Position numbers and translations under genes: made by a program. The notes under the pieces are model-generated. The model was not told the DNA's origin. It was given only the letters and a program-made list of their open reading frames with translations, and searched no databases. DNA of 64,000 bases, from the NCBI GenBank assembly GCA_030737835.1, contig JAUJYN010000012.1, positions 593,014 through 657,013 on the forward strand, given 5' to 3'. The DNA is from Acorus gramineus (lineage: Eukaryota; Streptophyta; Magnoliopsida; Acorales; Acoraceae). Positions within the stretch are counted from its first letter, which is position 1, and each line of letters opens with the position of its first letter. Shown piece by piece: positions 4,338-48,944 of this stretch.

Positions 4338-4786
4338 TCATTTGAGAAGAAAATTAAATATGTCTCTCAAAGTAATAATGCCTTCCACACGTCTGCTCCC
4401 AGCATCGATGACGACGAGCCTCCGCACAGCTGAATGTGGGGGGAAAAAAGATGGTTTTAGAGAAGAAAAAAAAATGATGCATTTATAACACGCAAAAGCG
4501 AAGTGGTTATTAGTATTCACCTGTATCTGAAAACCGCCTTAAAACCTCATAGAAGGAATCAGAACGCACACAAGTTCCGCACTGCCTGTTGTCTCCATTT
4601 GCATCGTAAACTAGCCGAAGAGCCTGCGAAACCAGATCTCACGAGGTGATGTTCTCTCCCATATGAATTTTGATGGTTGTGACTACCATATGCATGAATA
4701 AGACTGACTAAAAAATGCTTGAAATCTATAATTACTATTGATATATAAATGGGGCCGTGTAAGCACGACACACACAGGCAAGCACG

Positions 4787-4818
<32 letters not shown>

Positions 4819-7800
4819 ATTAGTGAAAATTAAAAAAAAATCATAATACACCTACTTGATGCATTGTTGTTTGATCAAGTTGTATACGGGCATATACGTC
4901 ATCTTTAGCTAAAGACAGAATGTTGCTGCATACAGAAAAAGAAATACTATGAGATCAAATCTAGAAGAAACTAAGATACAAGAGATTATAGAAAGTAATA
5001 ATAAGCGGATAATGGTACCAATAAGATGATCGGTCTATCACAACACATGAAAACCAATCATCACAAAAAGACACTACAATATGCCAGAACAAAGTTCATG
5101 CCCCGTAAAATTCTAAAGATAAATGGATTGCGCCTTAATCTCAGTATATATATTCAGGGGAATTTTTTTCCCCAAGGAAAATGATTCAAAGAGCTTGTAC
5201 TCTTTGCACTAAAGAGAATAATTGCTTAAAGCAAATAGACCCTCCTCAGAATTTCTGACATATATACACATTATACCTATAGATTTGGGTGTACAGCACC
5301 ATCATAATTTCAATAGAGCCACAAACATAGTGGGTGGATAATCATACCATTCATGACCACTGACTGCTTCATCTACCATCTAAAATGATCTCCTCAGAGA
5401 CGCAACTGAAATCCATGTTTCCAAGCATTGTATATTTTAGGAATCCAAATAAAGGTACATGATTCGCATAACATTCAGTAATTTTATAACAAAATTTTCT
5501 TCCATTCAAAGATGAGGGGCTATCAATCACTTTCCAGAATTCAAACTTTTCATTATAAAAATAAATAATGCATCATCAAAAAACTAAATGGAACAACAAA
5601 GATTTAGAATGTGTTTACCTTCGAGAATATACATCCAACAATGACCCATTGTCATCAACAACAGGAATGGAACTTATTTGAGCTGAAACAAATGAAACAA
5701 ACAGTGAACGAGAAATCCAATAAGATATGCACCAAAGTGAATTTCCATCTGTCAAATTTGATGCAAAGAACATGCTATATTGGCTCACATATTTAACTAA
5801 AGTACCAATGAACAACGAGTGTATATTGGTTAGAAATCAGAAATTACATCATAAACCTCCGGACAGTTATCTCCAAAAAAGAGATTAATTCTATTGAAGG
5901 CTATCAGCCTATCAGGTAAGACAACAAAAGAAATTGCGTCAATTCTTCTCTTTGATGTGAGAGAGATTTATTAAGAGAGCAAGACATTTATATAAATATA
6001 ATACCAACCTTCCATAAATATATTTAGAGCACTACTCAGGGGCGCATTATGCTGCATTGTAGTTAGCTGGCGTCTAGAACAGCTGGCAATTTCTCCACTG
6101 GCTTGAGCAGCCCATGTTCCCAGACCAATTGCATATATTGGTTGCTGTAGGAGTGGCACCGTTCCATTGACATGTCTAAAATGTCTGAAGATATCTGGAA
6201 ATATAATGTAGAGAATGTCAAAAAATAAATGGATGACAAGCAAAGAGGGAGATGACAAAGTCAAACAAAAAAGAGTACACTGTAGTATTTCTGAGAGGCT
6301 GGCAACCGACAATAACATAGGGCATGAACCATCTGGAACTGAATAAGTTATAGGAACAGTAGATATATTGTTCCGCACTATTTTAAGAGCAACATCTTTC
6401 AGAGAGTCATTAGGAGAAGCCTGAAACAATAAAAGCCAAAAATTATCAACAGGCAAAAAATCTTGACTAAATTGTTAACAAGCACAGAATAATTCCAGAA
6501 TATCATTTTTGAACTCAATTCTCAGAATAATGAATAGATACACCAGTAGGGCACTTCAAGAAGCAATAATTCAAATACAGAAATTTATCCAACTATATAA
6601 GCTGTATAACAACTCAGAAAATTAGTGAGCTAATTAGCATTGTGGTATTTGGAAAACTTTGTTCAACTCTTACTTCAGGCTGACCATTAAATGGGACACA
6701 GAATTACAGCATCAGGGTTATGAATGTGGTTATAGGTCATTCCACCATGACTAGAATTACATTTCTAATAAAGTGCAGCCTCACCCTGACTGACACAGAA
6801 ATTGCAGGCTTCATACTGGAAAATCTGAACTCGAACTTGTAACATTATTCAGTAGATACTTGATTGCTCTTATCTATAAACTTGAGTCACATTAGTAGTT
6901 TAATACATACAAAATAGGGTTCTATATTCCAGTCATACATTGTTAATCTAGTCTAACTGAGAATAAAAGAAAAAATAATAATTCATTAAATTATGCCGCT
7001 TGTTGAGAGCCTTTTTTTTTTTTGAGAAAAATGATAGTTGGTTGAGTGCAATTGAAAGAACAGAATATCACCTAGCCTGTAACTCAACTACATACCATGT
7101 TTTTTTGGACAAAGGTAGACTATCTACCACGATTTCATTAATAGAAGTGTCGTAGTACATGTCCGAATATAAGAGTAAAACAAAGGGGACAAGGGAAATA
7201 CATAAAATGAAGAACTAGATAAGGAAAAAAGAAGGTTATTTGGCTCGGCAGAAGAGGTATCTACCCAAGCCAAGTCAAACTACATACCATGTTAAAGTGA
7301 GTTTACATTCAGTTTAATAACTCAATATTTCTACTAGTCAACCAGAAGGCAACAGAAGTCCACAGGAACAGGAAGTCTCTTGGTATACGATCAATTAAGC
7401 ACCACACTAGTGGATGTCCAGTTTGAGACACACATAATGGAAATTCCAGCTAAACATCTAGAAGACAACTAATGTCCATTGGAACAGGAAGTTTCTTAAT
7501 ATGATCCAAATAAATGTTGCTGACGCCCCACCACTTGTCGATGATTGTTTCTGAAGAATTACAACCTCGCAGTGGGAAAGTATAGCCCTCCAGGGAGATT
7601 ATATAATTATGGGGAAACATGTGTTTCATGGAATTCAAAACATCAAAAATATTGGCTAACTTAAAAGGTCATACTATGAGTACTTCTGCAAAGCTAAATT
7701 TGGAGATATAGCAAACAGCATACAAGGTTAGAAAAATAATGAATGAAAATATTGTATGATATGATCTTACACATAAATATCTATTAATAGGAAAGAAAAC

Positions 7801-10800
7801 ATACTAAAGATGAGAATTGCATCTCATTGTTTTCATTCAGAAGGAAAAAGATGAATCATATTCATACACATAATCAAATAATCATGATCATGTTCACATT
7901 AGAAAAACCTTATCACAACTAGTATCTGTCCCAATTGATTTTCAACCTCACGTAAACCCCTCCGTCAGAGTCTAGTCAGGGATCCTAGCATAAACCATTT
8001 GGCAGGAATGGGGTCCACCTTCATTGAACAATATATTTTAAAAAAACAATGAAATACTATATAAAACTAGTGAAGATGAAATCTTACTTGAATAATAGGC
8101 CTCCTGGATGGAGACACAGGCCCATTGGACTGGGGATAAGTATGGGCTTTTCCTTCCTTCCAATCAAAAATTTGATGCATTTCAAGCTCTTCGTTAGCAA
8201 GCGCAGATACACGGTCCTTCAGCTATTCATTAAACAAAATATAGAAGAGGTGAGTAAAATTAAATGGGCTGATATATGACAAAATTTTGCAACCTTAAAA
8301 GAAAACCGAAACAGCATGTATCCATCATAAACTTCAATCTGAACCAACAAAGATCCAAAGCATTGTCAAGCCTACAACCTATATCGAACAAAGCAGACAG
8401 AGCCAACTATTTATTAAGAACAAGAACAATACTTCTTTTTTTCTGAAAGTTGGTGGAAGCCCTACACCTTAATTCATTAGAAAATAGGGATGCAGTTTCT
8501 TTAACTCTATCGATTATTGCTAGAAGATGAGGTCCCATAGTAGTATAATGATAAATAAATAAAAAGAAAAAGAAATTCTGAAGAGGGAGTGCACCACCTA
8601 TGGTTTATTAATGGCATAATGAACTTCCTACAGAAGGGGGACATGAATAAATTAACCCATCGTGGTTTCCCAACTTGCAACAGCCTATGGTTCTCTATTC
8701 TCTATTTATTTCCAACAGTGCATAGAACATTTTTTTAACCAACATTCAGCAAGAATAGATGGAAATTCAAACTGATGATGCCTCAAACTGTCTGTTGTTC
8801 TGTCTGGTTAACCAGGAATGAAAAGTAGTTTAGGGGCAGGGAATGCTTAAAGAAAAGGCTCGAGTCATTGTAGTGAATTTCCTAAAGCATTAGTGCAAGT
8901 GCAAATGGGATTTTTCCTTGGGGAGTAGTGGGTGTAACTTTGGGGGGATCAGAGGCTACAGGGGCTTGTGGCCTTTTTAATGTTTGGTCTCCGGAACATG
9001 TGTTAGGGATGTTCCTTGTGTTCCCTCCATCTCCTCTACTATCTTTTGAGCTCCACACATCTGTTTTTTCCATTCCAAAAACAGTGTTCGATTATATTTC
9101 CTAAAAAGTGAGAGTTCAATCACCCACAGAATGAATACTATCCATTATACTAAAACACGTTTCCATTCATGCCAAAAAGAGATTTCCTTAAGCATAGCAA
9201 AACCTACGTAGCCTCGATTTGTGACAGGAGTGCAGCTATAATAAATCTTCATTCCAGACTATTTCTACAAAACTTGTTGTATTTAAATTTTCAAAAATAG
9301 CTTTCTAAGTCACCACTGCTTAAAATGCCCTACAAACTTAGAAGCAATAGAAGGCAATTTTATTCTTTGATCAGTTTAATAAGCTTCATAACAGATGATG
9401 AACATAACAAAGATATCAACATGCAAACCTCTCTCAGTATTAATATAAAGTCGGACGCAGTCAACATCCCAACTAGCTGTTCGATACCCGTATCCCAGAT
9501 TGGCACAACAGCAAGTCCCTGAAAGTAGACCAAAATTAAATGAAGTATTACAAACTGGGAGAATCCAACAAGTCCATACAGATCAAAGAGTTCAACAAGA
9601 CAAAGGGGCTATGAGCACTAGGCATGATATATAAGATAATATCTTCCTCTATTGGCTACATACTCTAGCTATGGTGAGCATCATAACTTAAGTTTGGCAA
9701 TTCGCTAGACTCTGCAATTTATTATACAAGCATTTTAATTATACTGTATCAAAACAGGACATGGACCATCAGCAGACAAGCTCTGTCTTGATATAAGAAC
9801 TAAAAGCCTCCGGTGCTAAATTCATGAAAACATAAAAATGAAGAGAAATGTCGAAGCCCATTTTACTGTGCATGGAAAACTGGCTGCAGAGTCTACCTTT
9901 ATCACAAGCGCAAGCACATCAACATCAGAAACAAACAAACTGTTAAGTAAGACATTCCAAAGATGGAACTTGTCAATTGAAAGACACCCTCTTCCACACC
10001 ATTTTAAAGCTTACGAAATTCTTCACCTTTAAAACAATCTTAAGTAATAGAAAGAAAATGGTACCGGCAGGGTTTCAGGACAATATTACGAATGTGGGTC
10101 GCACGTGGGAGGTGGGAAAAAGTTTGAGAAAAAAGGACAGAAGTGCTAAATCCATGCCAGCTCAGTGAGTGATATGATTGGAAAGGAACAAGATGCTGTT
10201 TCAAGGGGATACAAACAACTCCAGAATTTGGGACTCTGTCGAGTTCTATCTCCTGTTAAAAATGTTACATATCGAAGGAGTCTAATGTATCTTTATCTTT
10301 TTTTCTTTCTTTCTTTTTCTTTCTTCTTTTTTTTTTTTTGTGGGGGGGGGGGGTGGGGGGGGAAGGGGGGGGATTGAGGTGTTTTGCACTGAATGTTGCC
10401 CTATTCAATGAACAACTTGTATAGTGATGTAGTGCATACAGTCTCTCTTGCTTGTTTTTATTTCTGTTTTGATTGTTCTACTCACTTTCTTCTATCTAAT
10501 AGGCAGTTAGCCTACCTTTTATAAAATTAAAAAAAAAAAAAAAAAAAACCGCCACCATTCTACAAACAAAAGGAATGTTACCAAAAGGGATATAACATGC
10601 CACTGAATTCCATGAGGACTGAATGGAGATACAGGCTTGCCTTATACAATGAGATAGGTTTATAAGAAAATGTAGGCGTGAATGAGAAAGTAATAGCCCT
10701 GGCATGCTGCGAACTGATATGGACATTTGGGATGGCCTCCAGCCATTGGTGCACAATACTAGGAATATTTTTTCATGTCACTAATAAAATCCAACAAGTA

Positions 10801-13800
10801 TAAACTCTAAACTCAATACAAAACAGCCCTGATTTACCCTAATTTAAATTTTAAACCCTTGAAAAGTAGACTAATTTAGTGGAGAGAAGGACTTCAAGAT
10901 TTTACCAAATGATTAAGCAAAAAAGAAAAGAAAGGGAATGAATGTTTCTTAATCTTCTGGTCAGATTCACTCATTTGGAAAAAAAATGGTAATTTTTTTG
11001 ATGGATCGTAGAATCAACCGTTAGCGAATAAAGGGAGACTGGGGTATCTACCTGTTCGTACATGATACGAAAAGCTTGTTTCACAGGCAGTGTGACATCC
11101 AAGACAGTTACCTGAAACATTACACAATCTTTTAATCAGGAACAGACGAAACCGTGTAGTGGTATCTGAATGATGAAATAATTTCAGTGAGGGTGAGATA
11201 TGCAAACCTTGCCTGAGTATGGTAACAAGTCATATGCGGTGTATCTTGTCAAGAAAGCACAAATACTATTACGCGAACCATCTAATTCTGCATCAGAGAA
11301 ACGTGCCACTGGTTCCCGGTGCACGGGACTAGGAACTGCATTCTGAATGACAAAACAGCAATGTGATCACTTTGGCAGTTACAACTTGCAAAAATCACCA
11401 TGTTGAAGAAGGAAAATATACAAAACTAGCAAAGATGACAAACGAAAGACTTAAGGTACCGCTGGCAAAAGACCACCATTAAGGAGAGGAGCAATTATTC
11501 TAGGATGAGCAGGATGAGGTACAAGTGGAGAAGAGGAGGCTGGTGGCGCTACAATAATAAAATTGTTTACATTTCCATATTCATCATGCATGTAAGGTTG
11601 TGTTTCATCACATCTCCATACACCATCAACCAAGAACCGGTACTGAAAGAAAATAACAAGTAAGAAGTCAGATGATGGAAATCCAATATTCACTCAATGA
11701 GTGCCAAAAAGAATGCAAATCCAGAGTTGTAATTAAATTGGCAACACTGTAGACACAGTTAACGCAGCATATGAACATTTCCAAAAGTGACGATCAATCA
11801 TTATATTGGCAATTTCTATAATATGGATCCACAATCCTCACATATATGAATTTATCGAGAAATGACTCCTCAATCATAAAAACAAAATCACTAGAAAATG
11901 ACATCTGGGATAAGTCAATAATTTTGTAATATATAGTTAGAAACACAAGCATATATGGTAAAAGATGAGAACCTAACCATAAACAGGATAGATAGAAAAA
12001 AAATCCTAAAATGATGAAAATGGAAAAGTTGAGAGCTATTCCTCATCATCATAACAAGACAACAGAATGACCATATCAATATCAATAATTAATAAACTAA
12101 TTGCAAAAAATAAAGCATCAACGAGACTGCAAAATTTGTATGCATTTACATCCACATGTGATGTATCATGAATTTATTTTCAACTGAAATTCATAAAATA
12201 TTATTCACAATAATTTATAAATCATATATACTTAGAAACCTCTTAAGTACATATCTGACCAAGAAATCTTCCTGCACTATGCTAATCAAGTGATCAACTC
12301 ATCAGTCTCAAAACCTTCTGCATTGTTCATTTCCTCCAGGCATAGGCACCAGCCCGCCGGGCTATTGGCTCACAATGAATGTGTAGATGCTGTGATAATG
12401 TAATTAATAAACTGTCCGCTGATCCACTCGAGTGTCATGAACCTCCCAATAAACCACTGTCCATTCATCAACCATGACCCACAAAAGCTTAGAACCTGAT
12501 TCCACTTCAATATCAGTAACTTGATAACGCACGTCTTCATTTAAACCCATGAACATGGCGACTGTTTCCACGAGTAGAATGCTGTCATCACTCAAGCTGC
12601 CAGCACCTGCTTTTACAATATTCCCTGTACGGTTTTTTATAACCCATCCACAACTGGTCTTAATCAATAACCCCCCCCCCCCCCTCTCCCAAAACCAAAA
12701 AAAAAAAGTTAACTTTAATATATAAGAAAACTTGGCTGTTCCTATCAAAAAATGGTCTCTGCAATGTGTATGCCTTACATCTGATTTGGTTGCCAAAAAT
12801 GGGTGCAAAATTGTGGAAAAGAAAATGGTCATCTTTTACATGTAAAGAGACTAATTGTCTGATAAAAATGACCAAAATACCATTTTTCATTTCCTCATAA
12901 TTATGAACTTTTGGTAAATATAGTCATAGTTTAAAGTGCGGCCGCACGTACCGGTACGTGCAACGCACTTGGAAGGCATGTGCGACACACATGCCTCCGA
13001 TGTGCGACAAGTGCGCCACACATGCGGGAAATGGCCGCATATGCGCCATGTGCGGCGCATGTCACCGCACATGGCGCCTCCAACTAGCCGTTGGAAGTTT
13101 TTTTGGGGGTGTTTTTTGAGGGTCCCCACTATAAAATAAGGTCCATTTGAATCTCAAATGCACCTAAACCAACTCAAACATCTCTCCAAACTCTCAAATT
13201 CTCTAAACTCTCAAATTTTTCAAAACTCTCAATTCTCAAAAACTCTTGATGTTCTTTCAAATTTTCCACTTCAACTTGTTATTCTAGTGTGTGATTCATT
13301 TGATTTTTTTATTGTAGGGGTTATTGAAGAAGGCTTAAAAGGATCTTGAAGGGATTTGGAGGAGATTCTTGAGGAGTTCATCATTTGTTTGCATCTTCTT
13401 ATCTCAATCTTTTGTGTCTATTTATTTCAATAGTCACTAGACTCACTACACAACACTAAACATGTCATTAGCCACATCTACCCCTTCCGAATTTCCCCTT
13501 AGACCTGTTTCCAATGACCCTTGTTGGAAGTATGACCAATATGCTAGTGTGAACGACAAAAGTAGAATTAAATGCATCTTGTGTAATAATCACGTTGCAA
13601 CCGGTGGTCTAGCTCGGTTTAAATGCATTTGATTAGGATGCCCAATTCAAATGCTCATCAATGCGTGAATCCCACCACTGAAATCAAAAAAGAAATCCGT
13701 GAATATTATGATTCTCAATCTAAGGCTTCTAGAGTTACTGCTAGGTACCAAGATCCCTACTTAAGACCAAACACCGAAGAAGAGGATGAAGATGATGATG

Positions 13801-16800
13801 TTGTTGCCCTTGAATCAAACACCGGCCCTAGTTCTCGCCCCGATCCATCCCAACCCAAAAAAAGAGTACGTGATCGTTCGAGAGGACCTCTTGATAGGAT
13901 GTTTTCTAGAGGTAGTGAAGTTAATACTAGGAATCCATCCCAAACCCAATCATCCATAGAGAGCCACTTCAAAAAGGAGAAGATGCATGAGACCCATCGC
14001 AGCATTGCACAATTTTTCTATCACGCTGGAATTGCTTTCAATGCTGCTACTATGGCCCCATTCAAGAAAATGATAAAGAAGATAGGAGATTTTGGCCGAG
14101 GTCTTAAACCACCCACCCCATACCAATTGGCTGGACGTTTATTGGATAGTGAAGTAGATGCAACAAGGGAATTGGAACGACAATATAGAGAGAGTTGGAA
14201 AATATATGGGTGTAGTATCATGGCTGATGGTTAAACTGCACGGCATGGTTGGAAATTCATTAACTTTCTTGCTAATTGTCCCACTGGCACACTATTTATC
14301 AAATCTATTGATGCTTCATCACACTCACAAACAACCACTTACTTGTACAATCAATCTATCAATGTCATTGCACGAGTAGGTCCGGAACACGTTGTCCAAG
14401 TTGTCACAAACAATGTCGCTTCTTTCATTTCTGCGGGTGAGCTCCTCCAACAAAGGTGGCCTCACCTTTTTAGGATACCTTGTGCCGCCCATTGCATTAA
14501 TTTGATGATTAAAGAAATATGCAAAGAACACAAGTCCACCATAGCTAAGGCACGTAGGATTTGTGTACTCATGTATAAACACTCACAACTTCTTCATCTC
14601 ATGAGGGAGAAGTTAAAAGGAAATTTTGTAAGGGCGGGAGTCACTCGATTTGCCACCCACGTCCTATGTGTACAAAGCCTCTATTTTCATAGACAAGCTT
14701 TGAGACAATTAGTCGTTTCTTTCGAATGGAACGAAAGACATTGGGCAAGGGGTAGGGAGGCAAAGAAAGTGGTAAGGATCATCCTTGAGGATAACTTTTG
14801 GAAGGGTGTGCAACAAATAATGAAGTACACAACACCATTAGTTTAAGTTTTGAGGATGGTGGATAGGGATGAAAAACCCTCACTTCCATATGTTTGGCAT
14901 GCAATGGAAAATGCAAAAGCTAAGATTAAAGAAAATCTTAACTATATGGAAAGAGATTATAGGACTGTAATCTCTATCATTGACAAAACATTTATAATTG
15001 ACATGTTGAAGTAATAATGTAATATTGAGCACTTTCACCTTCAGAGCTATCTCAGGCTGCAAGGTGGACACCAACATTTCAATCAAACAAGACCACTTCA
15101 CAATGTAAGTGGTGACTGCTACAAGAAGACAGAAGGTACCAGTACTCGCTTATCCATGAAACACAATTAACTAATTTGTCATATAAAACATTGAACTACT
15201 ATTCTCTTAACATGTGACCTAAAGACACATTTCACTCCATCCAATCAGAAAAGAAGAACAAGCAACCAATTACATAATTTTTCATGTGGAGTCCAATTAA
15301 GTACTGAAATGCAAATTATTTCTCCAATTCTATCCATAGTAGCTTAAACATGGAGAACCAACTAAATATAAAGAACAGAAAATGAACATACCACAGCCAA
15401 AAGAATTATTAGGCTTCTATGGATTCCTATTATCTTGAATAAGTGAACAACAACATGAAGTGCAGACAGCTCTACCAGTCAACCAACTACCCAGTGTGTA
15501 AGGCTAACCATGAACATGGTCTCACTCAACCAACATTTTAGTATAAAAAGAGGCATCCACCTACATTCTGGTTTCACAGCTCCCCCAACAACCCTCATGG
15601 AGATGCCCCGAGTAGTCAACATCGCAGGTGGAATCCAGCAGACCACAGGAACAATATCAAACAAGTAATACCACTGCTATCCCTTAATCTAAATGTGTAC
15701 AGGTGGGAGAATTTAGGATTGACGAATGAGGGATGGCTTCTCTTACTGTTCCAAGAAAAACCATCCAAGTTCACAGGATGAGAATTAGCTTTGATAACTG
15801 TCTGATTCTCCTGGTCTAAAATTTCTATCCCGTCTTCCTCATCCACTTTTCTTCAAGAGAGTAGGGGGCTAAAGAAACTCTCTTTAGCACTTGCACATCT
15901 TATTAGCACTAATTTTCTTTAAAACAAAAGAAGGGGAAAAAAAGGTCAGAGCACACCGCATATAATTTTTTCACTCATATATATGGGAGGTTGGAAAACA
16001 TAAGGGGGCATGATGGTCCGATCTTCTAAATATATACAGAGAGAGGAAAGAACAGCGGTCAAGTCCCATTGCAGTGTAATTTTGCAATTTTAGAATAACG
16101 AAAAACCCAATTTTGGTCTTCATTCGTTAGTCTTGTCTTCACAATGGCCCCAAATACCAATTTGGTTAACAAACAGCCCCATTGTATATCATAACAACCC
16201 TTCCTATCTTGCAGCCACACTCTTCTACCCACCCAACTAACCCCAGAATCCATCAATGCAAACCCTTCAGAATATTCATCATTGAGAACTTGTAGAAATC
16301 CTAATATGCCTACGGGCACAATGCACTATCCTGGAATCCATCACTCCATCACCAATAGTAATCAAACTCGTCCATCTATATTCCGCTCCATCCTCCAAAT
16401 TCCAAAACACGCATGTCACCACAGAGAGACACACAAATATCATTGATCAAATGTTTCTCGACAACAAAATCTACTCCCAACCGGACTAAATCCCATCACT
16501 CCCATACCCCTATTTTCTTCTTCGTGTACTAAAGCCGTCAACAATTTGTTCACTCAATCACTCATACAGTTACACTTTAACACGGTAAATTAAATATAAA
16601 TATTTTCATCCAAAAAACATTAAAAAAAATTTCAAATTTGCGACCGCACCTGGTGAAATCCAGGCAGAAGGTTGCACGTCATCTGGAAGACTGTCGATGA
16701 ACCCTCCACGAGCATCATCTGACTATGCTCCGTCCATCTACATTGCACGAAAAAAAAAATCAGTGTTTACAAAAAAAAAACAATTTCTTTCATACACAGA

Positions 16801-16892
16801 ATACGCGAAGAGATGGAGAATCACCCTGAAAAGGAACCACAGAGAAAGACATGGCGACCTCCGTGAGGCCAAGCGAACCTAGTGGGAACCAT
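4338..16892 (-). CDS. SNF4: SNF4-type AMPK/SnRK1 beta-gamma subunit (KINbetagamma)
   Basis: Thirteen minus-strand exons join in frame into 467 residues (Arabidopsis protein about 487): 16892-16825, 16737-16650, 11642-11460, 11342-11208, 11111-11052, 9518-9429, 8222-8088, 6420-6281, 6184-6009, 5682-5619, 4925-4856, 4623-4521, 4429-4338. This is the plant fusion of an N-terminal glycogen-binding AMPK-beta-like module (PTRFAWPHGGRHVFLCGSF, then GFHQYRFLVDGVWRCDETQP, residues about 3-85) with four CBS repeats of the gamma subunit (YTAYDLLPYSGK, VPIWDTG, SPNDSLKDVALKIV, ISSIPVVDDNGSLLDVYSR, RRLVVIDAGSRRVEGIITL). It regulates SnRK1 energy-sensing kinase. The start at 16892 is set by an in-frame TAG 9 bases upstream; the N-terminus is shorter than in Arabidopsis. 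Intron 2 is about 5 kb and carries a hAT relic. The usual WRHDE is WRCDE here. No break is seen. Confidence 0.93.
12404..12665 (-). pseudogene. RNase H-like (RVT_3) fragment, probably LINE-derived
   Basis: The minus-strand frame reads WVIKNRTGNIVKAGAGSLS, then LLVETVAMFMGLN and TDIEVESGSKLLW, which matches the layout of the plant RNase H-like domain found at the end of many non-LTR retrotransposons (residue pattern GxVxxAGxGxxS, then A/VExxAxxxGL, then E.S.SK.L). It is an isolated piece of about 85 residues in KINbetagamma intron 2, on the same strand as the gene, with no start, no reverse transcriptase nearby and a poly-C/poly-A run at its upstream edge. Exonisation cannot be excluded, but the domain has no place in this protein family, so a relic is the best reading. 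Confidence 0.6.
12930..14995 (+). mobile_element. Broken hAT DNA transposon in KINbetagamma intron 2
   Basis: A plus-strand transposase can be followed in pieces. Bases 13463-13631 encode a BED-type zinc finger (DPCWKYDQYASVNDKSRIKC, ILC, then RFKC). Bases 13623-14234 encode an acidic linker and the start of DUF659 (PFKKMIKKIGDFGRG, WKIYGCSIMADG). Bases 14343-14846 continue DUF659 (EHVVQVVTNNVASF, PCAAHCINLMIKEI), and a tail runs to about 14990. There is a frameshift near 13633, a stop after MADG at 14232-14234, another near 14847, and the C-terminal hAT dimerisation domain is missing, so it is 3'-truncated and inactive. The left end is a GC-rich block (12935-13090) full of ACATGCG/TGTGCG words, typical of hAT subterminal motifs. 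It lies antisense to the host gene. Confidence 0.8.
12936..12961. repeat. Two overlapping perfect palindromes at the hAT left end
   Basis: GTGCGGCCGCAC (12936-12947) and GCACGTACCGGTACGTGC (12944-12961) are both perfect palindromes and share four bases. They open the GC-rich subterminal block of the hAT relic. Confidence 0.85.
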
Positions 16893-16957
16893 CAGAAAAC
16901 CCTAAAAACAAAACCTTCTAGCGAGATAAAGATCGGATCTTTTCTCTTCCTTTTTAT

Positions 16958-18245
16958 GCCTCCCGGACTCAAAACCCTAGATCCCCCCACCTCGGATTCA
17001 CCGACGAGCGAGAGACGAGACAGAAACGGAAGCGCCTGCGATGCGTCGCGTCGCGAAGAGGGCGTGTGTGGGTGTATATATAATCACGGACACGGACGTG
17101 GATCTTTTCTCGATCTCTGAGAGGTGTCGTTTTGGGAAGCTTTGGATCCAATTAGGGTTTCTATAAATTTGTCCGCCATCAATGGCGGAGCGAACAATCT
17201 TTCCTTTCTCTCAGTTCCCCGAAAACGCGCGGTCGAAAGAGAGGAACAGAATAAGAAAAATGAAGAGGATATTAAACGATGCGAAGAAATTTTTATTTCT
17301 ATTTTTCATTGGCGGTGAAGTTACCGGCGGCGCAGATATTATTATTATTATTATAAAAAAGAGAAGTGTTGCCTTCTGACGTTGGTTTGTTGGTTTAATT
17401 AAGGAAGGCGGAATCTTTCTGTTCTTTTCTGTTTTGCGAGGCTTCATTGATTGTTAACCATGGTTTAATCAAGGCTTCACGGGAAACGGGAAACGGGAAA
17501 CGTTAGGAGCATTTCGAGCAAAAAAAAAGGTCAAACTACTTTAAATGTAACATCGAATTAGTTGATTTTTTTTTAATTTATCATTTTTTAGTAAGTTTTC
17601 TTTTTTAGAATCATAATATTTGACAATAATAATATTTATTAAAGATATATATATATATATGCATTTCAGATTTTTAAGATCTCCTTTCATATTTATAGGA
17701 TTGTAGGATTTTGTTTTCTTTTTTTTTTTAGATTACAATAATTGTTACTAAAAGTTTTTATTACTATCTTAGCATACCTTTTATTTAATAACATATGATA
17801 TGTTTTAATAATTGTGTTATTAAAATTATGTATAGGAAAATAAGTCTTTTTGGTACTTATAACTTACAAAAAAATCTAGTATTATACATGTGCCAATTCA
17901 CGTGGGCTTAACAAGATGTAATGACTGTTATATTTATATGAATAATACAACATAGATAAAAGGTTTATCGAATGCTGAACCATCTAAAAAAACTCATCCA
18001 TTTAACGTGTATGTAGTAATAAATTTGTATATCAAGTAAACATGTACATAATAATTAACATAACAATTTTTTATAAAATTCAATAGAGATAGATTTAATA
18101 AATATATTTAATTTTGAATTATTAAAATTTGATATGATTTGCTTAAATTTGATTTGAAATTTATAATATATTTATGCTTTTAAATAAGTCTAATTTTAAA
18201 TCTTAAATTTTGAATGAATATGAAATAATTAATTAATAAATTCAA
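16958..18245 (-). promoter_or_regulatory. KINbetagamma promoter and 5' UTR, duplicated upstream of the type-B response regulator
   Basis: On the minus strand this holds a TATA box (ATTATATATA, about 17085-17075), a GC-rich start region (CCCTCTTCGCGACGCGACG), and a 5' UTR with CTAGGGTTTT telo-box-like sequence and TCCGGGAGGC, ending 65 bases before the start codon. Nearly the whole block is homologous to 48945-51775 in the opposite orientation. Matching anchors include TATTATGATTCTAAAA with GAAAACTTACT, ATCTGAAATGCA, ATAAATTTATTACTACATAC, and the TATA-to-GGGAGGC stretch. Bases about 17090-17464 are present only in this copy, next to three tandem GGGAAAC units (17481-17502). Confidence 0.85.
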
Positions 18246-18652
18246 GGGAGGATAAACAAAAATTCAAAAAATTCGATACTTTTCTTTTAAAAAGTAAGTG
18301 ATAGGTATGTTTTTTTTTATAAAATACAAAAAAGATATCACCGCATTTTGGATGGAATAGCTTTTGTAATAAATAAATCTATTCATCCTTTGCCAATTGC
18401 CATGTGGATTCAATGTTTATTATGAGATTTTGATATGGATTAGATTCTTCTATCATTTAATACTGCGTGGAGAAAAACAATTCATTTTATTGTACATTTA
18501 GTTTCATAAAAAAAATGAAATATATACTTTTAAATAAATAAAATAAATAAAGTGTGAAGATTATATGTTAGACGGTTATCTTTAAGCCTCATTTAGATCA
18601 TGGTGACGTTTTGAAAATTTAGGAGATCAAACTAATCCTGCAGTGCTATTCA

Positions 18653-21600
18653 TGTTAGAATTAGAAATTGAAGAGAATGAATCAAGAATATTATTAGGGT
18701 TTGTATCCAATATTTATAGTACAAAAAGGGAAACGAGGAAAAGACTAATCTACCATTAACCCTAACATATATATACATTTAACGCCCCCCTCAAACTCAT
18801 AGTGGATCATATACTGAGAGTTTGCTCAACAAGAAACCATGTCGTTGAAGTGTATGTGACTTTGTGAAAAAGTCAGATAACTGAAGAGAAGACGAAATAT
18901 ATGGGAGTGATATAATGCCCACAATAAAATGATGACGGACGAAGTGATAATCGATCTCGATGTGCTTCGTACGTTCATGAAAAACTGGATTGCTAGCAAT
19001 CTGAATGGTGCTCTTGTTGTCACAATATAAAGGAGTAGACGTAGATAGAATGACACCCATGTCAGAGAGGAGGCGCCGAAGCCAAACAACCTCAGCAGTA
19101 GCAGATGCCATAGCACGATATTCAGTCTCAGCACTCGAACGAGAAACGATGTCTTGTTTCTTGGCCTTCCAAGATATAAGAGAGTCACCAAGAAATACGC
19201 ATATACCAGTAGTGGATTTTTGATCTGTGACATCTTTTGCTCAATCAGCATCAGTATAAGCGCGAAATTCAAGAGTAGAAGAAGACGGTAACAGCAGAGC
19301 ACGAGATATGGTGTCACGTAGATAGCGTATTATCCGAAGAACCGCAGCATAATGAATAGTACGAGGGGCAGCGATGAACTGACTGACAAAATACATGGCA
19401 TAGGCAATGTCAGGACGAGTGACAGTGAGATATACGAGGCTCCCAACAAGCTGTCTATAACGAGTAACATCAGAAAGAGGTTCTCCATCGTCAGGTCAGA
19501 GCTTTGCATGAAGCTCAATAGGAGTGAGAGAAATGCGATTATAAGTTAGACAAGCACGGTCGATCAAGTCAGCAGTATACTTGCGTTGGGAGAGAAGATA
19601 ACCATGCGGGGCAGACGCAACTTCCAAGCCTAGAAAATATCAAAGTTTGCCAAGATCTTTCATCTCAAATTGACGCTGAAGATGTTGCTTGACCGATTGT
19701 ATATGAAAAGAATCATCGCCAGTGATGAGTATGTCATCGACATAAATCAACAAGATAGTACGATGGGAACCGGATGTGTGAACAAATAGAGCTGAATCAA
19801 AAGAACTCAAAATAAACCCAGCAGCATAAATAACATCAGTGAATCCAGCAAATCAAGCGCGAGGAGCCTGCTTGAGACCATAGATAGCGCGACCAAGATG
19901 ACATACCTGACCAGATGGATGAGGAAGGCCCAGAGGAAGAGTCATATAAACCTCCTCTGATAAATCACCATGAAGAAAGGAGTTCTTGACATCAAGCTGA
20001 TAAATGGGCCACTGACGAACAGAAGCAACAGAAATCAAAGTGCGAACAGTCGTCATCTTCGCTACAGGAGCAAATGTCTCATCATAATCAATACCATGCT
20101 GCTGAGTGAAACCACGGGCAACCAACCGAGCCTTGTGACGCTCAATCGAACCATCAGAGTGAGTCTTGATCTTGTAGACCCACTTACAACCAATGGGAAC
20201 CTTACCTGTAGGAAGAGGGACAAGATCCCAAGTATGATTGCGTTGTAACGCGCTAAGTTCCTCTGCCATAGCATTCTCCCATTCAGGAATACCAACTGCC
20301 TCACAATATGACTGGGGCTCCCAATGAGATGAAATGGTTGTAAGAAAGCTCTGAAAATGGGGAGAGAATGAGTCAAAAGCAACTAGACTTAGCCTCTGAG
20401 GGGGACGACGATCACGAGGTGGATTGCTGCGAGGAGCTGGTGCGGGATCGACTACCGGTGCTAGGTCGACTGCTGGTGTATGGTTGACTGTTGATGCGAG
20501 GTCGACTGCTGGTGCATGATCGACTAGTGATCGAACAACATCAGGCGCAGGAGCAACAACAGAGGGACTCGGCTCACATGAATCATCTGAAGGAGGAGAT
20601 ATATGGGATGGCAAGGTCGTAAATGGGACAGATGAAGGAATAGAAGCCGGTGGGACAGACGATGGAAATGACTCAGGAGTCAAGAAATCCAAAAAAATAA
20701 GGTCATCAACAGTAGATGGAGGAAGTGGAGATGGAGGTGAGCGAAGAGCATAATAAAGATTAAGCTCCCAAAATGTGACATGACAAGAAATGTGAAGACG
20801 TCGTGCAATAGGATCATAACACTTGTAACCCTTATGTGGAATATTGTATCCAAGAAAAACACACATAGCAGAACGAGGAGAAAGCTTGGTACATTCAGTG
20901 GGAGGAAGAAGAACAAAACATGTGCAACCAAAAACACGAAGACGAGAATAATCAGGTGGCTGATTGTGAAGCCGCTCAGATGGTGAGATACCACTAGTAA
21001 CAGATGACGGAGTGCGATTGATGAGATACACACTTGTGAGAACTGCCTCACCCCAAAACTCAACAGGGACGGATGCAGAAAGAAGTAAAATCAAGTCATC
21101 TCAAGAATGTGACGGTGTTTACGCTCAGCAACGCCATTTTATTGATGAGCATAAGGAGTGAAAAACTGATGAAGGGTGCCTTGGGATGTCAAATATTTAT
21201 GAAAAGCCTTAGAATAATATTCACCACTCCAATCAGAGCGTAACACATTAATACGACGAGAAAATTGAGTCTCAACCATGGTAGCAAAAGAAGTATAAAT
21301 ACGCAATAAATCTGAACGACTAAAGAGAGGGTAAATCCAAGTGAAACAAGAATAGTCGTCGATAAAAATGACATAATATCGATTTTTTCCTTTTGAAAAA
21401 ATAAGAGACAGACCCCAAATATCAGAATGGACTAAATCAAAGGGAGAATATGAAATATGCGAATTGGAAGGGAAAGGAAGAGCCACGGTCTTACCCAATT
21501 TACAAACCACGCATGGTTGAAGATCCGTGCGAGAAAATGATCCTAATGCACCGGTGCTAATAAGATATCGAAGTCCAGGCTGAGACAAATGACCAAGACG

Positions 21601-21870
21601 AGGATGCCAAAGATCGAAAGGGGAAGGGGAATTTGTATCTAACTGCACAGAAGCAGCGGAAGGCAGAGGAACATGAAGCTGATCCATGTAATAGAGTTCA
21701 CCTTGTCGTCGCCCAGTCCCAATCCGTCTCCCAGTAAGTCGATCCTGAACAGAACAGGATGATGAATAAAATGTGATCGTATAACCAAGGTCAGCAAATT
21801 GACTGACAGAAAACAAACTCATGGAAAGTTTAGGAACAGAGCATTATGATTTTTCATACATATTTGTAAC
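18653..21870 (-). mobile_element. Relic Ty1-copia LTR retrotransposon, 5' truncated
   Basis: Fossil copia element lying on the minus strand. A short 3' LTR of about 115 bp (18653-18767) starts TGTTAG and ends CTAACA, with a TATAAATA-type box inside, next to a purine-rich tract (about 18781-18795). Parts from the 3' side: RNase H (18797-19111), reverse transcriptase (about 19110-20350), integrase (about 20950-21500) and GAG-pre-integrase (about 21600-21822), in the copia order. No gag and no second LTR are seen, so the 5' part is gone. The pol region is interrupted by several breaks, and the element is dead. The frames are still easy to read, so it is not among the oldest elements here, but without a second LTR its age cannot be estimated. 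Confidence 0.9.
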
Positions 21871-29599: not shown

Positions 29600-30840
29600 C
29601 TCATGAGCCATGGCTTTGCTGTGTACAAATTTTCAGAATGCCTTTGCCCATTTGAAGACCATCCTGTCTTATTTTGTTTTTTTAGTCTTTGCCTGATCAG
29701 AACCTAAATTGTCTCTCTCATGTACATATATCCATCCCTGTTTCAGATCCTGTGTTTGTACTCTTAAAAGTAGAATTTATAAGTGTTGTGTGTGTATTAG
29801 CTGAGGTTATCAACTGATTTTCAGTTGGGTATGAGCAATAGCTTTGTAAATATATGGATTGCTCTCCTTGTATAAAATTCAAAATTAAGTTAAATCTTTT
29901 GCGAGGTCTTGATAACTCATCCTTTAAATTTATAAATGTGTGTGACATGTGGAGGTGTTTTGGGACAGGTTGATATATGCGCTGTAAATGAAAAATTTTA
30001 GGTTGAGCATGAGCCCAATTTTTGGGTGGGTGAGGGTTGGGTTTAAATGTTCAGGTCAGAGTTAAACCACCATTTGTGGGAAAATGTTACATCCAACCTT
30101 ATTTGCAGTTCATAGATGTTTTTAATTTTTTTATACAAATGTACACTTAACTAATGAAAGACACTCTTTTATATATAACAAAAAAAAAAAAAAACATATT
30201 TTGTATAAATAGAATGTATATATTTTTAATAATTAATAATAATTATATATATTTGTATATATATATTTTGTCTTTCATTTTCTTTTCTATCATCTATTTT
30301 AGCATAAAGCTAACTTTTTTGGTTCAGAGTTCAAATTATTAAGTCTTAACTGGAATATGACCCAACTCGAATTTAACTTCAATCTGAGTTACAGGTCTGG
30401 TTGGATAAGTTCTAATTACGTTTCAGAGATTTTAATTTTTTCGTTAAATAAATTTGTCATGCTTGTCGAATAATTGGATTTGGACTTCGTAGAGAACAAG
30501 TTGAAATAATAAATTGCATAAAGGAGGACCTAAATTGCATAAGAAAAATGGTTGTTTTATTACATTTGTCCTTGTTTAATTTGAGAAATTCGCCCATAGT
30601 TTAAAGTCGGGTGGTTTATGCCACGCAAGTGAATTCAGTTGTATTGCACGATACGATATGATGGATGTGTTGTTTGTTGCATTGCTGGTGTCTTACAGAT
30701 CTTAAAATTATCTTAAAATTGAGTGATGGTGACTCAATTTTATTCCCTAGGATATTCATCACAAAATAAAAATGTAAAGCAAACTTTGCACGCAACGGAT
30801 ACTCCGAGGTGGCAGCCGCCGCCGGTGTATTCTTTTTTTT
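29600..30840. other. 3' flank of the unknown gene and AT-rich spacer
   Basis: The 3' UTR of the preceding gene should lie in the first few hundred bases. Near 30001-30075 there are GGGTTGGGTTT-like words recalling the MITE at 22315. Otherwise the sequence is AT-rich, with poly-A at 30180 and no coding signal. Confidence 0.4.
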
Positions 30841-30849
30841 TTTTTTTAG

Positions 30850-33800
30850 AAAAATTCAAATAACCCCGCATAAATTGTCTTAAATCCATATAACTCTTTA
30901 AATTTTCTTAAGTCCATCTAACCTCTTGAAAACATCTATGTAAATCTAAATAATGTCGTGTTAAATTTTGTGAAAAACCTTCAGTAAATGATGATTTTAC
31001 CACTCCGGATAGGGTTTTATCTGGAGTGGTAAAATCGTCATTTAGAGAGGGTTTTTCGCATTTTTCCACATATTGTAGGGGTTTTTGATATATTTTATTT
31101 TTAGTCAGGGTTAATGTCACGCCACAGGGCGACCGTCCACAAAACGTGGCAATATAATATCAATACCTGAGGTTAACAATAACTCTAACATACAACATAT
31201 GAGGTGGTAAAGTAAAGATAAGTGATAGCTAGCTGACAAGCGGAAGCATAAAAATATCAATAAGTCTGTAAATCAAAACATTATTACAGACTTGAATACA
31301 CAATCACTGTCTTATGAGAGCCAAGTCTAGTCCAATAAAATACCTCTTATGCAACATGCACGATTAACAAATACATGATTCTAGGACTGCTAACAGCCTC
31401 GCACTCATCAACCGCCCGACCGAATGCTCCACGCACGCAAGACCACGCCACAAGGAAGCTCCAGCTCCATGCCCAATACTACCCCTGTAAAAGAAACAGT
31501 ACGCGAGGGGTGAGCTACAAGCTCAGTGAGTGGCTAGAAACCAAACACCATTACAACAATTTAATGTTAAGACAATTTTCTTTCAAGGAAAACATGGGTG
31601 GAAACCCAATGGATAACAAGGTCATGTGGCGGCGCGATCAGCCTCACCCTCACCCTCACTCTCGGAGGGAGACTCTTGGGACTCTTGGGGAGAAATCATA
31701 CCGTTTGCCAAAGAGACGAAGAAATTACTTGTCCACACAATACTACTGAATTATCTACATAGAGATAATTACCCACCAATGTCTCTCAACACCGATACAT
31801 AACCGGATCCAATATGGGAACGAACAAACAAACGAATGGGTCACTGGGACACCCGGGGAGAAAACAAAGGTTAACCATAACATCTGGTGTTACTTGATAA
31901 CATAATACAACCAGTCCCTTCGCTACGAGGTAGAGATGCTACTACGATACCTCAAAGCGTTAGGCACAACTTACCTGTAATATACTTGACAGGTATAAGA
32001 GTCACGTAACCACGTGACTCCCAACTCATCCTCACCCTAGCCCCTGGAGGGGTGACCCTAGGGACTTTTGGGATAAATCTGTTTGCTCTACACCCTCGTT
32101 ATCCGATAGCCCTCTTCTGGGTAGCCTCTACCTGGTATACTCCCATGATCAGTACATCTGTCGAATGCATCGGTAGTACATACAGGTGGGAGTACTCTGT
32201 CAGGATAGCTTCAACGCCGGGTAGCTTCAACGCGGATCCGATGAAGGGGAGAACGATTCCATGCTCACAATGTGAACCACATAGGTGGACTACTCTCGAT
32301 AGTCATATACCGATGATATCGAATACGCTTGAACTCCCACGTAGATGCGTTGCTCGGACGCGAGGAGTTACTTTTGCTCTCGCGCAGAAATAAGCCAAGG
32401 GCATAACCCAACAGACGGTTCATACACGCGCCTAACACGGTTAAGCCTAGCTTAATGCCATAACCACCGGTTTAACAAAACCGATACAACAATGAATTCT
32501 CCTAAATTCTATTGAGTGCATCGCTCAGATGTAAGGTGGCGGTTACATCGCTTGCGCTTTAACTAATAAGGTACAACCCGATAGTGGGTCATACCCACGC
32601 CTATTAAAGATAGACCCAATTAGTCTAACATGCGCATAATTATCATAGGAGAATTTTATCGCAGAATGAACATGATCACATGCACAATAACATATGATTA
32701 ACTATAGGGGTTCTCCCTAACATGAATATATGGCATAAACAACAAATCATGCAACATACATACAAGGCATGGCCTAACTACACATGCATATGAATGCACA
32801 TTAATCATACAAGCACACAAAGCATAACTTAACACGTGTTGGATATCACCAACTTGAAAAGGAGAGGGTTAAGCGCGATCTCGCGTACCAACAGGCGCAT
32901 GCCAATAATCCCGAGCAAACCTGAGTCAAGTAGGAACCACATCTACTTACTCAGTTCGCGCAAAGAGGGAGGGTGAGAGAGAGAGAGAAGGCCTCATCAT
33001 CTCAGGAATGAGAAGCTGGTCATTGCTTTGGCCCAACAAGATGGGCGCAACAACTATACCACGCCCTCAAGTCTTATGACTAGGGAATATTAAGTATGCA
33101 CCCGGTTATTAATCCAGGCTTAATCATGCTAGATATTACTAATATAAGAGGGGTAGTATTACAACCAAGACTATCTAAGGCATGCCATATTCTATACATC
33201 CATATAAATACAAAGAGATACGTGCCCATACAAGCAGGGCGCATGCAAATATGATCATTCACATATGAATACAATACATATGAAAGTGCATGGTAGAAAA
33301 AAAGGTGATACGCAATATACAAGCTATACAAGCTTAACATGCAAGATATCTAGCATATTTAGAGTGCAAAGAATCCCCATGGATGCACGATGCACGATTA
33401 CGTGTATCGAGCGCTCCCCGAAGGGTTGGATTGAACCACTCACAGATACTTGGATCGTCGTGCATCCGGTCTACGAGATCTACAAGACACAACACAATAT
33501 ATATAAACAACGTGACAAACACAACTCAAATAAATGAATCATAAACATGATCTCTAGCGCAAGACAGTGCACGGGGTGGGGCGGGCAGCACGCGACGCAC
33601 TCCCATGGCAACACAATCACATGAACAAAATGCCATAACTTCTAAACCCTACAACCAATGGTGCTCAAATCAAACATGAAGATACCTGACACAGATATAA
33701 TCCTACTTCATGAAGACACCAACTCTTAATATTGCCTACAGCAGCATAAATAACTAATTGACACAATCGTGTAAAACTGGTGTATCTGCAGCAAACAGCC

Positions 33801-35186
33801 CTACGTTTTGATCGCCACAGCACCAAATACACATCTAAAAATTATGCAATAAATCATACACGTTTGCTGACATGTTGGGATCATAATCCATGAAGACATC
33901 ATAACCTGATTTAGCCTCTACATGCTCAAAATAAAATATTTCCAGACACTGGTCAATTCCCACGCGAATCTGGACAGTCCATGCAATTCAGGTTATAATT
34001 TACAACGCATATAATATTATGACACCAAATTTGATATATAACATTTAGACACATGAAGGATCATATCACATGATGACACAATCCTGAGAATATGCCTCTA
34101 AATACTTGTTCCAGAAGGATCTTAAGGAGACGGAAATCTGCCTTACTACAACACAAAACCACCACCATCCACGCATAAACACAAACACCTCATGTGCAGC
34201 AGCAATTACACATAACAACACTCTCCCAACAACACCCACAAGTGCTACAAAACCAGAAAAGAAGAGGAAAATTCTTACCAAGAGAGGGGGAGGGAAAGGG
34301 GGAGGTGTGGGGGCTCTCGAACGCACCAACGACCACAACCACCACTACCACCACCTCCGTTGCTTCTCTTCTTCATTGCTGGACCAAAGGGGAGGGGAAA
34401 AATCGGGGGAAACCTTAGAGGCTAGGGGAGGAGGAGAGGGAGAAGACAACATCAACACATGCACACACTAACCTTGATCACTTCCTCTTCTTGCTCCTCC
34501 ATCTTCTCCTTCATGTTCTCCTTCTCCTTCTTCTTTTTCTTCTTCTTCTCCACCAAACACACAAGAGAGGGAGAGCAAAAAGAGAGAATGAGAGTCATTT
34601 GCGGATGGAGAGAGGGAGGGAGAGAGAAAGGGGGTTTTTACACTCCCAAATAGTGTTTAGGGGTTATCTTAAAGGGGGCAAAGGGGGTGGTAAGGTTAGG
34701 GTTAGGCTCACCCTCTCACACCCACTTTTTCCACCTTTATTGGAAAGCGCGAAGCCAAACGCCACATCACTCGAAGTATCTCACCCACTGAAATGCAGAT
34801 ACGACCAAACCCGGATACGATTCGGAACTGCATATGTTTTAAAAAGTTACCGGAATTCGATGAAAATTTTATGGGTATGACAAAACAGTACCAGGACCCA
34901 TAATATACAGTTAGATTTTCAATCAGAGCACTCCAACTCCCGCAGGTAGCTAAAAACCAAAATTTTAGCAGCTCCGATTGAAAAAATAAGGCTCCATATG
35001 ACACAGGCATAATAGTTAATCAGATAAAATATTCACAAAATAATCATAATCTGTAAACAAAAAATTAACTCAAGGAGGTTATTTAGATTTATATAGGTGT
35101 TTTCGCGGGGTTATATGGACTTTTGGAAAATTAAGGGGGTTATGTGGATTTCAGACAGTTTACAAGGGGTTATTTGGATTTCCCCC
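30850..35186. mobile_element. Foldback MITE (CCAAATAACCCC family), split by a solo LTR
   Basis: The left arm (30850-31114) and right arm (35015-35186) are long inverted repeats. Both contain TCCAAATAACCCC, CCATATAACCCC-like and TAAATCTAAATAA blocks in the same order when one is reversed. Without the 3.9-kb LTR the element would be about 440 bp. A relative at 39171-39858 shows the unbroken centre. There is no coding capacity. Confidence 0.8.
31115..35014 (+). mobile_element. Solo LTR fossil, about 3.9 kb, probably Gypsy
   Basis: The block starts TGTCACGCC, as in the very long LTRs of Tekay/Del chromoviruses, and is flanked on both sides by GTTAA (31110-31114 and 35015-35019), a 5-bp target duplication. 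It contains the GTGAGCTACAAGCTCAGTGA type of sequence (near 31509) that I associate with such LTRs. No gag or pol is seen and only one copy is present, so it is best read as a solo LTR left by recombination. Its ORFs are low-complexity (34100-34700) or random. The family call is from memory; the boundaries rest on the duplication and on the split MITE. Confidence 0.65.
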
Positions 35187-39170: not shown

Positions 39171-39858
39171 AAAAATCCAAATAACCCCTTATAAACTATT
39201 AGAGTCATTATATAGGCTTGTTGGGCCTAGTCCTGGAGGCCCAAGGGGTTGGGGGGCCCCCCCCCCCCCCCCCCCCCAACCCCCTGGCTGGACTGTTAGG
39301 CCCTACTAAGTATACTTGCGTACTTTGGTGTACTTGGCTGCGATATTCTTAAGATGTATCGAACATGTGCGTCAGGTGCGCCTCACGTTCTCAGGGATGC
39401 TCGAATTTTTGTCATGGGTATTTTGATCTTTTTCTGTTTCTAGGATTTGTACATCTTGTAATTATATAAGGGACCTTTTGGTCTCCAATTATCGACATAA
39501 CATTATTCAATTTATTTTTTCTTAAACTACCTGAAATCCATATAACCCTGGTTTTTCCTAAAGTCCATATAACCCCCTGGAAATACCTATATAAATCCAA
39601 ACAGCCCTGTGAGTTACTTTTTCTTTGATAGATTAGATAAAATTGTCATTTACAGATGAATTTTCGCATTATATGAGGTTTTTAGTGTACTATGTTTTTA
39701 ACCATGATTAATCAAATAGAATATTCATAGAATAATCCTAATATGTCAACAAAAATTTAACTTAGGGAGCTATTTGGATTTACATAGGTATTTTCAGGGG
39801 GTTATATGGATTTTAGACAATTTATAGGGTGTTATTTGGATATTTCCCTAAAAAAGGA
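39171..39858. mobile_element. Second CCAAATAACCCC foldback MITE, interrupted by a 325-bp insert
   Basis: The left arm is 39171-39198 continued at 39530-39650; the right arm is about 39730-39858. Shared blocks are ATCCAAATAACCCC, GAAATCCATATAACCC and CCTATATAAATCCAAA. The left arm is split by 39199-39524, flanked by AACTA at 39194-39198 and 39525-39529. The insert has a G/C-run hairpin (39218-39303) and a stretch (39299-39405) inverse to 35755-35866, so it is probably a piece of an LTR fossil. Confidence 0.7.
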
Positions 39859-40836
39859 AAAAGATATATCTGGCCCTAATTGTAGTCTATACCATTTTTC
39901 CTTTTGAAAAAAAAATCATACACTCTCTTTAAAGTGTATGCTATCATATGAAATGATGTATATACTGAAATATAATAGTGTATTTTTTTAGTTGAAAAAA
40001 TAAATCGTGTCATACACTATGATAGAAGCTATACACTATGATAGCGCAATATATACTATCGTAGTATATCGGGCTGCAAACAGGGTTGCGTGCATCAACG
40101 CTCCAAAAAAAGAAAAATGTTAAACTCACTCATTTTTATCGATCAAAACTCAGACCACACGTTTTTTTTTATATAAAAAACTAGTAAACATCACTTAATG
40201 AAGTATATGTTTTAATAAAAATTGTATATCGATTTATTTCGAATTGAATGAACCCATTATTAGTAAGCGTAAGAAAATATTTATCAAGGTATATATATTG
40301 TTTAACGAGATATATGCTTCACTGAATCTGTAATGAGGTATATGAGACTATAATTTGAACTGAAAAAAAAACTGAGTATAACAACAGTCCTACAAAAAAA
40401 TGTGTTTTTTTTTTACCAAGCCACAAAAAAAAAAAAAAAAAAAACCGTGTATTTATTGCCATGAATGAATTTATTTACCAAACAGGGACACCTCCAGGCT
40501 ATCAGAAGGCCAGGACCGTCATTTCCGGTGGACTTCACTTGAACGGCCACTGATGCTTCAAAAAAAAAAAAAAAATCGCGGCCAATGCGGGTCCCACTCT
40601 CCAACATCGAACGCTGATAGCGAAAGATCGCTCGAACTGAAATGGCAATCTCGTTATTTCCGCAAACATCGTGGTTAAAAACCGTCTCCCCAGACACAAA
40701 AAGTGTCCGAGCCTTTAAAGGAGGGAAAAAACCCTCCAAAACCCTAACGCGAGCGAGAGAGGGAGAGTCCATTCAAAGCTTTCAAAAACCCTAACAAGCC
40801 ATCGTTCGATCGTTCGATCGATCGAGAGAGAGAGAG

Positions 40837-48786: not shown

Positions 48787-48944
48787 CTTTATTTATGGTA
48801 CTGTTATTTCGCCCACCCAAATTTCCAGACCCGACCTAAAATTTGTGTTGGGTTGTGGGTTTTTTAATTTCTGTTTTCACAACACCCCCCCCCCCTTTCT
48901 GTTTTTACACACACCCAACACACACCCCCCCCCCCCCCCCAATA

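Follow-up and report, generated by a model that had tools for sequence, protein, structure and literature searches.

Two kinds of system in which promoter or breakpoint DNA has been duplicated or carried to a new place are close to the locus described here. In Drosophila mojavensis, the inversions 2h and 2q carry inverted duplications at their breakpoints, which are attributed to staggered breaks (PMC3355041). The inverted copies of 2q measured about 1 and 4.3 kb, whereas for 2h one copy was intact and the other was reduced by deletions, and the breakpoint genes were changed (PMC3355041). The second system involves Helitrons. In cell culture, about 11.7% of the events of Helraiser, a reconstructed bat Helitron, took flanking DNA along, and HelibatN3 was traced to the capture of a promoter, six codons and a splice donor (PMC4778049). 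In our study, a window of 64 kb (the whole stretch of DNA analysed, C32:593014-657013 in a 398.6-Mb assembly of 137 contigs, a plant's to judge by its genes) was found to hold two unrelated genes with related upstream regions. The upstream DNA of KINbetagamma (KIN; minus strand, 18245-16958) was collinear, in inverted orientation, with that of a type-B response regulator (RR; plus strand, 48942-51775), including the TATA box and the putative 5' UTR.

Inverted homology upstream of two unrelated genes

The KINbetagamma gene was located at 4341-16892 on the minus strand, with its ATG at 16892 and its exons read by hand to about 4341 from domains and splice sites. A domain search with the protein joined from the exon stretches gave AMPK1_CBM followed by CBS domains, an order that we take to be the plan of plant KINbetagamma. 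The RR gene was located at 51777-57805 on the plus strand, with exons read by hand to about 57805, a provisional 3' end. Its product carried Response_reg and Myb_DNA-binding (Myb-like) domains in the domain search, and the best match of the protein among solved structures (PDB) was Arabidopsis ARR1, a type-B regulator. Two candidate starts were found for RR, namely ATG 51777 with a spliced 17-nt exon, or the in-frame ATG 52064. The route from ATG 51777 to the receiver-domain exon needs a weak donor (4.34 versus 5.8 for the best nearby, on a crude log-odds scale with hand-set frequencies), and the required acceptor is poor (T+C 0.35). Because these splice sites are weak and the in-frame ATG 52064 exists, a captured RR start codon was dropped as a certainty. 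A broken junction between RR exons 4 and 5 was likewise dropped, since an in-frame GT-AG pair is present (donor after 56566, exon from 56668).

Several other features were observed in the window. A DUF659 transposase-like remnant (13623-14846), presumably of hAT type, lies antisense in the large second intron of KINbetagamma. Upstream of KIN, a minus-strand Ty1-copia remnant (18655-21850) contained an RVT_2 domain and one LTR-like end, and no second LTR of its sequence was found within the window. Between the two promoter copies lies a RecA-type gene (41993-45901), whose last exon (45503-45901) matched RecA in Pfam, the rest being read by eye. Upstream of the RR copy, a fold-back element (48164-48788, self-inverted, 60% over 655 bp) was seen, with relatives near 30831-31060, 35016-35181 and 39523-39864. 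In addition, a DUF761 (cotton fibre expressed protein) match was found in the open frame 60754-61326 on the minus strand. No part of the window matched Rfam at gathering thresholds, and a plasmid collection gave no match to 16900-18245.

The collinear inverted blocks reported in the first-pass annotation were recovered when the window was compared with itself by BLASTN, with E-values from 9.9e-77 to 3.2e-13. The inverted pieces were 17924-18242 with 48945-49291 (78.3% including gaps, E 9.9e-77), 17809-17882 with 51291-51364 (82.9%), 17492-17755 with 51364-51623 (78.5%), and 16958-17055 with 51654-51775 (73%, with a CT-microsatellite gap). All four exceeded 300/300 second-order Markov shuffles made for each piece, with scores of 334, 85, 238 and 97 versus maxima of 58, 37, 50 and 36, respectively. 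Furthermore, when 2.8-kb tiles of the window on both strands served as a real-sequence control, the best score after the KIN and RR tiles was 59, bar one tile that shared 45 query bases. Chance or AT-rich similarity was ruled out by the shuffles and these tiles. The shared length, first given as 1.3 kb, came to 767 aligned columns with 88% identity in a global alignment made without the RR insert. A stretch of 45 bases noted earlier as nearly identical did contain one substitution and one 1-base indel over about 40 bases, while its last few bases differed more.

The homology was divided into three blocks, of which the outermost, block 1, is treated in the next section. Block 2 is distal promoter DNA at 17492-17875 (minus strand) in the KIN copy, about 54 bp of which is absent from RR, and at 51298-51623 (plus strand) in the RR copy, where it is now directly upstream of the TATA box. 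Block 3 occupies 16958-17095 (minus strand) in KIN, with the TATA box TATATATA at 17082-17075 and presumably most of the 5' UTR, and 51630-51775 (plus strand) in RR, with the TATA box at 51634-51641, a presumed 5' UTR and a CT-repeat expansion. The ungapped identities of blocks 1, 2 and 3 with a stricter aligner were 86.7%, 84.3% and 92.3%, and the K2P values were 0.148, 0.176 and 0.081, respectively. Fewer differences were counted in block 3 (9/117 versus 93/641, Fisher p = 0.055), no more than a hint that the TATA box and 5' UTR are under constraint. A 16-base piece of the 5' UTR had exactly two occurrences in the window (<=2 mismatches), one per copy. The block 3 alignment and the domain content of the proteins agreed with the earlier statement that both TATA boxes lie within the homology of genes with unrelated products, and the 5' UTRs probably do so as well. 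At the level of sequence, the two genes have a core promoter and a putative 5' UTR in common, and RR would be transcribed from the copied core promoter.

The homology was confined to this segment. Five comparisons of the flanks gave no support for a larger inverted duplication or for a second duplicated segment at the other break, and the scores were at or near shuffle level (the observed score was matched or beaten by 93, 139, 117, 21 and 11 of 200 shuffles), with the lowest count (11/200) for KIN downstream versus RR downstream. Moreover, the arrangement was not that of a shared bidirectional promoter between closely spaced divergent genes, as two separate copies lie about 31 kb apart.

The copy number of blocks 2 and 3 was examined in the whole assembly. 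In the search with block 2, all nine first-look candidates were scored, and the match was strong at KIN and RR only, with RR scores of 196 and 70.7 bits. Seven other places scored 55-69 bits across 82-178 bases, at E 2.8e-10 to 3.3e-6; no match to block 3 was seen near them, and none to the first coding exons of KIN and RR. Given these weak matches, some old repeat DNA may be present within block 2. Two loci, L054 and L056 (C83:638812 and C83:759202), about 120 kb apart and 97% identical, showed a weak block 2 similarity of about 90 bp. The search with KIN 17491-16893 gave two candidates, and both were accounted for by KIN and RR. Very common words were skipped in the genome search, and the copy counts hold at that sensitivity. 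At E 1e-6, blocks 2 and 3 had no match in 26 other Helitron loci or in the 200 kb around the window. Neither of these two blocks is a repeat, and both are two-copy at the sensitivity of these searches. Being strong genome-wide only at KIN and RR, they uphold the first-pass proposal that the promoter and 5' UTR of both genes derive from one segment.

The Helitron at the outer end and the divergence of the copies

Block 1 behaved differently from blocks 2 and 3. A genome search with KIN 16958-18245, in which 40 of 513 candidates were scored, gave 43 matches: one was KIN itself, four were parts of the RR copy, and 38 lay at other places. All 38 fell at query positions 890-1288, which cover the Helitron plus no more than 29 adjacent bases. 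The outermost block 1 belongs to a dispersed nonautonomous Helitron-like family. A high-copy repeat had been named beforehand as the result that would speak against a shared promoter, and block 1 is such a repeat, whereas blocks 2 and 3 are not. The remaining possibility, that the whole similarity is a high-copy repeat or chance AT-rich resemblance with no promoter relationship, could draw on block 1, on the AT-rich look of blocks 1 and 2 and on the seven short weak matches of block 2. It is very improbable, as block 2 is strong at KIN and RR only, block 3 occurs there only and each piece lies far above its shuffles, and, within what the genome searches can detect, it is refuted for blocks 2 and 3.

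The element upstream of KINbetagamma spans 17876-18305 (minus strand, 430 bp) and contains block 1. It begins with CCTAT after an A and ends with ACTAG before an A, and its ends (18305 and 17876) were set by comparison with family copies, which start with TC after A and end with CTRR before T. At the 5' end, 16 of the 26 copies passed the score cut, 11 of these 16 had exactly TC and 10 of the 11 had it after A, although the consensus end was written from the same 26 copies (L003-L028) that it scored, among which L010/L014 and L012/L017 are near-duplicates. At the 3' end, 14/26 copies passed, and 12 of these ended in CTAG, CTAA or CTGA, then T. Target-site duplications were absent at the Helitron copies, by reading. 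The family ends have the structure of Helitrons. The KIN element's own ends are imperfect, with CC after A at the 5' end and CTAG then A at the 3' end, and the RR copy likewise has CTAG then A. A family near-palindrome, CCACGTG..CACATG, lies 11 nt before the 3' end and is missing in RR. The hairpin is weak, since shuffles folded as well in 119/200 cases for KIN and 62/200 for the family copy L006; RR 51276-51310, which is without it, folded better than shuffles (1/200 as good).

The RR copy of the same Helitron is in two parts. The 5' and middle part (48942-49294, plus strand) has an unrecognisable 5' end with a C-tract just upstream, and the 3' remnant (51283-51297, plus strand) ends in ACTAG and lacks about 27 bp of the hairpin region. 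A TIR DNA transposon of 1,981 bp (49295-51275), absent from the KIN side, lies in this copy. It is flanked by the 7-bp TSD TAGTTAA (49288-49294 and 51276-51282), and its terminal inverted repeats are about 60 bp long and 82.5% alike. A shorter relative of this element with similar ends was seen in an RR intron (53668-54162).

KIN and RR have the same 3' Helitron junction, ACTAG followed by ATTTTTTT, and then block 2. They also had 20 derived Helitron columns in common, more than any other of the 325 pairs (18 in the next, with a median of 4), and one 9-bp deletion with the same limits in both accounts for 8 of these columns. The pairwise KIN-RR score was 1054, versus at most 928 with the 26 other copies, at an identity of 86.7%. 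In the family multiple alignment the KIN-RR identity was 79.4%, and five other copies were closer to KIN; the family tree joined KIN and RR with a support of 0.87. Since the same junction is present in both copies, it indicates that the Helitron adjoined the promoter before the segment was copied, and that the segment was copied as a unit.

Since then the copies have diverged in regulatory content. A proximal promoter stretch of about 430 bp (17056-17491, minus strand), with TGATTA at both ends, is present in KIN and absent from RR, and the genome search found no other copy of it. The missing stretch is probably a deletion in RR. Block 2 adjoins the TATA box in RR and is about 430 bp further off in KIN. 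The sole CACGTG of the KIN region, which we take to be a G-box, is in the Helitron hairpin, and none is present in RR. Similarly, the TTGACC of KIN, presumably a W-box, is altered in RR, where TTGACT occurs elsewhere at 49256. In addition, the 2-kb transposon pushes block 1 away in the RR copy. The first-pass annotation had suggested common control of the two genes. This is unsupported beyond the core promoter, as RR is without the stretch of about 430 bp and the G-box, its W-box is changed and its block 1 is displaced.

Origin and direction of the copying

The best explanation, with a probability of about 0.55, is a local inverted duplication of the promoter segment, probably KIN's own, which now lies before the RR coding region. 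The segment, composed of the Helitron insertion, the distal promoter, the TATA box and the 5' UTR, would have been copied as one unit, locally and inverted, from one gene to an unrelated one, with about 31 kb now separating the copies. The most likely source would be KINbetagamma's own promoter, and the copy would have come to lie before the RR coding region, which would now have that TATA box and 5' UTR. The route might have been an inversion with staggered breaks or a template-switch inverted duplication, for example, either of which would leave an inverted layout. In later decay, the 2-kb TIR transposon would have entered the RR copy, from which the stretch of about 430 bp and the Helitron hairpin would have been lost. 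We infer the direction, the type of rearrangement and which length differences are losses.

As expected for staggered breaks, blocks 2 and 3 occur as inverted copies on either side of a segment, and their earlier state was presumably single-copy. A local rearrangement is indicated because the two strong inverted copies lie about 31 kb apart in 398.6 Mb. This locality is weaker evidence than it appears, since the first-pass annotation could spot only copies within one window; despite that bias, no strong copy of blocks 2 and 3 farther away came out of the genome searches. Homology ends upstream at about 18245, 60 bp inside the Helitron 5' end, with nothing detected beyond. A random break would hit such a place only by chance, so this limit counts against the best explanation and favours a role of the transposon. 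The KIN-RR identity of 79.4% in the family alignment, which does not exceed that with several other copies, and the weak block 2 matches also weigh against it.

As for the direction, KIN is favoured as the donor, though unproved. The KIN layout of TATA box, short 5' UTR and ATG is plain and undisturbed in appearance, while about 290 bp separate block 3 from the in-frame ATG 52064 in RR, and the TIR insert and the missing stretches are both on the RR copy. It is somewhat unlikely that the promoter belonged first to RR and passed from there to KINbetagamma. Such ownership would suit the end of the block one base before ATG 51777, which could be RR's own start, but this ATG needs the weak donor and poor acceptor, ATG 52064 is available without them, and the RR copy looks more decayed.

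Among the rival routes, the leading one is Helitron read-through, in which the element missed its own 3' terminator during rolling-circle transposition and carried the promoter and 5' UTR beside the other gene. At its upstream end the segment consists of a Helitron whose 3' end points towards the promoter, the homology stops inside the Helitron 5' end with none detected in the flank, and the RR copy ends close to an ATG followed, within 17 nt, by a possible splice donor. Precedents are the transfer of flanking DNA by Helraiser and the promoter capture of HelibatN3 (PMC4778049). We nevertheless consider this route unlikely, as only two strong copies were found, both in one 64-kb window of the 398.6-Mb assembly, the RR Helitron has an unrecognisable 5' terminus, and the downstream limit (GGGAGGC) has no CTRR terminator, with homology running about 20 bp past the CTAG near 16980. 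A hairpin with CTAG at 17008-16975 folded better than most shuffles (8/200 as good) and was rejected as a new Helitron terminator, since the homology runs past the CTAG. The fuller proposal, that read-through moved the promoter and 5' UTR of an SnRK1 subunit onto a cytokinin-response factor and made a two-gene energy/cytokinin unit, is decidedly doubtful. A further route starts from Helitron copies at both genes, with break repair between the inverted copies also copying the adjacent promoter. It would account for the locality, the inversion and the Helitron DNA at the upstream limit; however, the KIN-RR similarity had no clear switch point (60-column windows 0.80-0.95) and common derived changes occurred all along the Helitron, which leaves this route improbable. 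The local inverted duplication of the promoter segment remains our preferred reading.

Comparison with known systems

In the KIN/RR pair, nature provides an example of an unrelated gene receiving a copied core promoter and 5' UTR, and the transposon that marks the copied segment is still there. It lets one test how far expression follows a copied core promoter after the loss of proximal elements, and whether there is any common control of an SnRK1 subunit and a cytokinin response factor. Among the open-access titles and abstract beginnings listed for captured or duplicated promoters and inversion breakpoints, no matching plant report was found.

In plants, maize Barren inflorescence3, with its ZmWUS1-B chimeric promoter, is similar in that a duplication rearranged the promoter of a gene; it differs in that the gene itself was duplicated in tandem, and multimerised sites lie in the 119-bp junction (PMC8062686). 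In maize p2, transposon-induced inversions likewise brought a plant gene near the control region of another gene, but it was an enhancer that was brought near (the authors' hypothesis), without a duplicated promoter (PMC8225341). As in HelibatN3, a Helitron here adjoins a copied promoter, and a short coding start with a splice donor may belong to it; the captured promoters of the bat elements were, however, amplified to many copies, and here two strong copies occur without a new Helitron terminator (PMC4778049). The agreement with D. mojavensis is that originally single-copy DNA would be present as inverted copies at both ends of a segment; the differences are that a promoter and 5' UTR are joined here to an unrelated gene and that the inversion is proposed from one genome (PMC3355041). 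Promoter capture is already known, and the KIN/RR pair is a new and clear case of it.
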